From a virus: a stretch of 35,237 nt of DNA. Shown piece by piece: positions 28,428 to 28,600 of the stretch. Where the stretch lies: positions 1-35,237 of the IMG/VR virus record IMGVR_UViG_3300042462_000023; one strand, written 5' to 3'. The notes beneath the pieces were generated by a model. It did not search any database. It had not been told where the DNA came from and was given only the letters and a program-made list of their open reading frames with translations. Made by a program: the position numbers and the translations under genes. Every line of letters starts with the position of its first letter. Within the stretch, counting starts at the first letter, position 1.

Positions 28428-28499
28428 CTATTTGTTCATTACGTACATAGTTACTTCAAAACCGAAACGTATTTCAGTAGCTGCTGGTGATGTCCACAT
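28428..28499 (-). CDS. pqqA: PqqA, precursor peptide of pyrroloquinoline quinone
   Basis: The gene encodes 23 residues, the usual PqqA length in many Proteobacteria. The peptide begins MWTSPAATE and ends IRFGFEVTMYVMNK. The hallmark is Glu15 and Tyr19 in EVTMY: in PQQ synthesis PqqD presents PqqA to the radical-SAM enzyme PqqE, which joins these two side chains, and the pair becomes the whole cofactor. Trp2, Pro5, Arg11, Gly13 and Phe14 also fit. By recall about 15 of 23 positions match Pseudomonas-type PqqA. AAGGA lies eight bases before the ATG. It is alone and leftward between two rightward blocks, like an acquired accessory gene. No pqqBCDE is in the window, so it would depend on host enzymes. 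Confidence 0.88.
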   Translation of the reverse strand: MWTSPAATEIRFGFEVTMYVMNK

Positions 28500-28600
28500 G
28501 ATTAGATTCCTTTGTTTTATGTACACGTCATTGTGTATATGTACGAATTATGCTCTTTTTTAGACACGTTACCATAGTTAAAACCATTAAAAGTGATATA

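Follow-up and report, generated by a model that had tools for sequence, protein, structure and literature searches.

The DNA analysed here, referred to as the window, is a viral record of 35,237 bases. Between positions 28428 and 28499 it contains a leftward frame of 72 bp on the minus strand, made up of 23 codons and a TAG stop, which encodes the peptide MWTSPAATEIRFGFEVTMYVMNK. A sequence-only reading had described this frame as a gene for PqqA, the substrate peptide of PQQ synthesis, and the frame, its strand, its peptide and the ribosome-binding site AAGGA (28508–28512, minus strand) are all as claimed. The peptide also carries the full PqqA signature that had been listed for it (Trp-2, Pro-5, Arg-11, Gly-13–Phe-14, Glu-15, and Tyr-19). 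The codons of the two residues that are cross-linked by PqqE were read from the sequence and lie at 28455–28457 (Glu-15) and 28443–28445 (Tyr-19) on the same strand. A search with the PqqA family profiles, which had been suggested as a check, gave 38.9 bits with Pfam PF08042 (cut-off 21.1, E = 8e-10) and 34.9 bits with the NCBIfam equivalog TIGR02107 (cut-off 20, E = 1e-8). Because both scores are well above their cut-offs, the match is not due to chance, and judged by its sequence the peptide is certain to be PqqA at the family level. A PDB sequence search with the peptide gave no match.

Profile annotation of the flanking open reading frames agrees with the earlier description of pqqA as standing alone, leftward, between two rightward blocks. 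One flank is a replication and recombination block (primosomal protein, NinB), and the other is a packaging and structural block (terminase, portal, major head protein). The record also encodes an exonuclease, Sak, a DNA-ejection-like protein and a holin-like gene, and pqqA is thus found in a genuine phage genome amid phage genes. A tRNA search of the window found none, and Rfam gave one weak, sub-threshold match in the window, far from pqqA. The phage had been called lytic-type; no integrase was seen among the part of the reading frames that was scanned, but this does not prove a lytic type. When the right part of the window was searched against phages at the DNA level there was no match, and relatives were reached through protein sequences. 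The closest named terminase relatives are phage ctXG6705 and the OM43 phage Venkman (~62–63% identity), followed by pelagiphages (~45% identity). Together with the peptide and the operator described below, the terminase relatives point to a host among the Methylophilales, an order whose OM43 and LD28 members oxidise C1 compounds and are abundant in lakes and coastal seas.

The upstream region of the window pqqA, on the minus strand, contains a putative PQQ-type operator box, TTTAATGGTTTTAACTAT, at 28574–28591. Its score of 17.7 bits compares with 10.2 bits for the runner-up in the window. A predicted −10 element, CATAAT (28547–28552), follows the box at a distance of exactly 21 nt downstream. 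A simple promoter scan of the window did not pick up this promoter because it has no −35 consensus. Between the promoter and the ribosome-binding site there is an inverted repeat, TACAC-N6-GTGTA (28522–28537), which is short enough to have arisen by chance in the window alone and is present in several close relatives too. The box was defined by motif discovery in the 150 nt preceding each of 140 non-redundant viral pqqA genes, which revealed an 18-bp motif, TTnMATGrTTTTCnnTAt, whose log-likelihood was 689 (57 when the sequence was shuffled). A matrix trained on such sites was run over both strands of 2.23 Mb of viral DNA, and 76 of the 79 strong sites are located upstream of pqqA. Across 106 viral promoters, the distance between box and −10 element shows one strong peak, at 21 nt: 41 of them have a −10 with five of six matches at this distance, and any other distance accounts for at most 12.

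The host version of the box is a clean palindrome, CTMATGA-WWW-TCATKAG. A plain pattern search of 18 whole host genomes located it at 24 places, 18 of which are within 200 nt upstream of pqqA; with the reversed pattern as a control, the total was 3 sites. Two further places, in two genomes, lie upstream of pqqB, and these provide an independent check since they were not used in finding the motif. The host −10 element is situated 44 nt after the palindrome, and a second half-site, TTCATGA, lies 23 nt downstream of the palindrome. As 23 and 21 add up to 44, the phage promoter is a one-site version of the host promoter, with its single site at the position of the host proximal site, while the host has two sites 23 bp apart. 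The host Methylophilaceae pqqA genes therefore have the same operator type and −10 geometry as the phage genes, and in the hosts, too, pqqA is commonly found as a lone copy separate from pqqBCDE. A putative box at a fixed distance from the −10 element, upstream of PQQ synthesis genes, is common to phages and hosts, and from this shared operator the phage pqqA appears to be plugged into the host PQQ regulon. The operator also offers a handle on the regulator of PQQ synthesis in Methylophilaceae. At 2 of the 24 places, in two Methylophilaceae genomes (G002/L386 and G017:C17/L392), the palindrome precedes the same gene, for a secreted, periplasmic pentapeptide-repeat-like protein, possibly a new member of the regulon.

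The box might itself be the selected element, titrating a host regulator while the peptide gene is a passenger. Its high conservation, and its near confinement in phage genomes to the position upstream of pqqA, would suit such a role. In the window lineage, however, where all 30 terminase-linked pqqA genes with a full upstream region carry the box, relatives without pqqA never have it as a promoter element. The ribosome-binding site and the −10 spacing are maintained, the coding part of pqqA is under purifying selection (see below), and pqqA persists in one phage group that has no box, so that we consider a regulatory decoy very improbable. Seven pqqA-less loci with strong box scores turned out to be contigs that end in or before pqqA, or chance intragenic sites.

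To determine how widespread the gene is, the peptide was searched with tblastn against 50,697 phage records. It was found in P19250A, which has an LD28 host, in MEP301, Venkman, MEP401, MEP402 and four Melnitz isolates, which have OM43 hosts, and in the metagenomic phage ctXG6705. The cultured Methylophilales phages that bear pqqA are of unrelated types. Pelagiphages of the same terminase lineage gave no pqqA match in this search, and pqqA therefore follows the methylotroph host and not the phage lineage. A degenerate DNA pattern scanned over 2.9 million viral contigs gave at least 120 matches, and pqqA is present in well over 100 viral contigs; the matches listed read as genuine PqqA frames that have a start codon and, before it, a purine-rich ribosome-binding site of the AGGA type. 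A second viral group has gammaproteobacterium-like peptides and no operator box (L011, L020, L022, L029, L036, L040, L049, L058, and L066). Two of the tblastn matches are labelled 'Acinetobacter phage MD-2021a' (L134, which is CAKLQF020000010.1, and H12). The first was set aside because it is a stretch of bacterial DNA that contains the whole pqqABCDE operon, and for this reason the label looks wrong.

In the phage isolate records examined, pqqA is unannotated or is overlaid by a hypothetical gene call on the opposite strand, and PHROGs has no family matching the window peptide. This bears out the view that so short a gene falls below gene-finder cut-offs and is easily overlooked, yet the 72-bp gene appears to be a common tool of Methylophilales phages. 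The substrate peptides of ribosomal-peptide pathways are thus a class of phage metabolic genes that is missed by standard annotation.

Conservation of the cross-linked residues was assessed with a degenerate pattern that left positions 15 and 19 free. Among the matches listed, Glu-15 and Tyr-19 are present in 129 of 129 distinct viral genes, and they are likewise kept in the copies from the terminase relatives of the window. Loss of either residue, or stops and frameshifts at the locus, had been named as observations that would count against the gene; neither internal stops nor frameshifts were seen. Divergent viral PqqA peptides (GMEITAY, EHRIGFEVTAY) keep both residues as well (L002, L003, L005, L007, L026, L045, L259, and L306). 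The pN/pS ratio is 0.23 over 160 distinct viral pqqA genes, a set obtained with a pattern that fixes some residues, and 0.35 in the set found through terminase only. Codon changes at the invariant Glu-15 and Tyr-19 are synonymous. These ratios indicate that the coding part is under purifying selection.

A search for the same gene at this locus in related phages had also been suggested. Relatives were counted on contigs that extend 3.5 kb or more upstream of the terminase; these contigs are not fully independent and include some fragments. With terminases at least 87% identical, 12 of 16 contigs have pqqA at the same place and one has it elsewhere; it is absent in three, which may be incomplete. 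It is at the same place in 6 of 7 contigs at 69–72% terminase identity and in 0 of 4 at 67–68%. Since some near relatives are without it, pqqA seems to help but is not essential, and these counts, with the pN/pS ratios, indicate that the gene is kept by selection in related phages. A neutral passenger, captured recently and repeatedly from a mobile, multicopy host gene, would be in keeping with the many dispersed pqqA copies in hosts and with the different locations of pqqA in different phages. Such a passenger would not be expected in unrelated phage types and in most near relatives, under purifying selection, with a fixed promoter geometry and with no decayed copies seen, and it is hardly a probable explanation.

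The phage carries only the substrate. None of the viral pqqA loci has pqqBCDE nearby, and so phage pqqA is never seen adjoining these genes, unlike the host set; among 39 pqqA-bearing viral records searched whole, none contains PqqE over the cut-off and one contains a PQQ alcohol dehydrogenase. The latter, a viral contig of 72,356 bases (L064), has three clustered tRNAs as well as pqqA and a 628-residue frame that matches PQQ-dependent alcohol dehydrogenase. In the sampled Methylophilaceae, pqqA is present in 100 of 100 genomes, with 1–12 copies each. According to an earlier genome study of the host family, there are 3–12 copies of pqqA, whereas pqqBCDE is typically present as one set (PMC4109929). 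In the loci compared, lone host copies do not generally adjoin a methanol dehydrogenase gene. With the host-type operator, these counts uphold the proposal that the phage supplies the peptide and leaves all the enzymes to the host.

The host PqqA (PF08042, TIGR02107) is the same 23-residue peptide with the same Glu-x3-Tyr core, and a close homologue of the phage gene is thus found, by sequence, in the likely hosts. Host and phage peptides are nearly identical, and the host consensus, MWTTPAATEMRFGFEVTMYVMNK, is also the peptide of phage P19250A. This bears on a further alternative, in which the phage peptide would occupy PqqD or PqqE, or run into a dead end, and so lower host PQQ, for instance to redirect carbon. 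PqqA acts together with the chaperone PqqD, and titration of enzymes by their own substrate peptide is possible in principle. An inhibitor would nevertheless be expected to have lost Glu-15 or Tyr-19 in some lineages, while both are kept without exception among the matches listed, and the phage peptides are equal or nearly equal to those of the hosts. An inhibitory role is therefore a poor prospect.

The preferred explanation, which we hold to be likely, is that the window pqqA serves as an auxiliary metabolic gene which provides PQQ synthesis with the substrate it uses up and so keeps methanol dehydrogenase supplied. That it is a lone substrate-peptide gene plugged into the host PQQ regulon is a well supported interpretation. 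A host regulator on the operator box, which is centred at about −42 from the predicted start, the position of a class II activator, would help host RNA polymerase to transcribe phage pqqA from a promoter without a −35 consensus. We infer that the regulator is an activator rather than a repressor, although a repressor would fit too. The 23-residue phage peptide would be bound by host PqqD, its Glu-15 and Tyr-19 would be cross-linked by host PqqE, and a host protease, PqqB and PqqC would complete PQQ; the chemistry of these steps is that of the known pathway. Each PQQ made destroys one PqqA, and it is thus the peptide and not the enzymes that needs replacing when host expression falls in infection, so that multiplying pqqA only is an economical route to a larger supply. 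The phage would in this way keep the PQQ-dependent methanol dehydrogenase, the entry point of host energy and carbon, supplied.

The hosts appear to raise PqqA supply by carrying several copies of the gene, to which the phage adds another. If the consumed peptide is limiting, 1–12 pqqA copies against typically one pqqBCDE set is the expected ratio. One extra copy may matter little unless the multicopy host genes are shut off or destroyed. The presence of this tiny gene in unrelated cultured Methylophilales phages suggests that methanol oxidation is kept running during infection. The phage gene would be expressed in infection, would raise PQQ and methanol oxidation, and would benefit the phage. 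As cultured phage-host pairs exist, the role of pqqA in infection is directly testable.

A comparable case is psbA of cyanophages, which encodes the D1 protein and replaces the one component that a host energy pathway consumes most rapidly. Phage pqqA would likewise replace such a component. The psbA product is a reaction-centre subunit, whereas PqqA is a substrate used once per cofactor, and unlike cyanophage psbA the phage pqqA is a gene of 72 bp with a host-type operator.

The window gene is not the first pqqA in a phage. The single earlier detailed report, from 2020, concerns the T4-like Methylophilaceae viruses VP_139 and VP_266 of Lake Baikal, in which pqqA lies beside a phage methanol dehydrogenase gene and was proposed to raise PQQ for methanol dehydrogenase (PMC7678222). 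The window phage, of 35 kb, by comparison has pqqA alone. Neither an operator nor the prevalence of pqqA is described in the text consulted. The gene is also named, though with no detail, in a list of viral phosphorus genes from 2026 (PMC13188868). In the searchable papers on MEP301, MEP401/402, Melnitz and Venkman, pqqA is not mentioned, and the literature searched contains no account of its prevalence in phage isolates or of the shared operator. The shared operator is new here, and the wider pattern is largely unreported.

In the marine branch, a structured element of ~50 nt is found between the promoter and the pqqA start codon, and was compared in 13 sequences from phages and 5 genes from OM43 hosts. 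Loci that have the element include the viral L048, L052, L053, L060, L064, L091, L096, L097, L099, L117, L120, L351, and L131/L132 (MEP402/401) and the host L153, L156, L224, L234, L243, and L393. In its 6-bp helix, 98.1% of cells are paired and five of the six pairs have changed on both sides. None of 500 shuffles reached as high a pairing or covariation, and slid controls were 23–57% paired. The element also has an outer helix, and its internal loops (UCAA/GANCU and CYU/CUC) are conserved. Rfam 15, searched with five loci, has no matching family. With a covariance model, 11 of 100 genomes of the host family were found to contain the element, which immediately precedes pqqA where coordinates were comparable, and there was one further weak match elsewhere; in pqqA-bearing viral loci it occurs only upstream of pqqA. 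The window pqqA is without it.

The leader RNA is a candidate riboswitch and a concrete candidate for a new regulatory RNA. A broader proposal, which we regard as conceivable though rather doubtful, is that phages repeatedly captured only the consumed peptide together with the host PQQ-regulon promoter, switched by host signals, and that the previously undescribed leader RNA shared with OM43 would sense a metabolite, which might be PQQ or an intermediate.

In the OM43 genome LSUCC0665 (L393, C1:874800–876200), two tandem pqqA genes ~200 bp apart follow the box, promoter and leader RNA, downstream of a gene for a small secreted peptide. A pqqA-bearing marine viral contig also contains a ROSE_3 thermosensor-like RNA that scores over the Rfam cut-off (L117:1445–1510).
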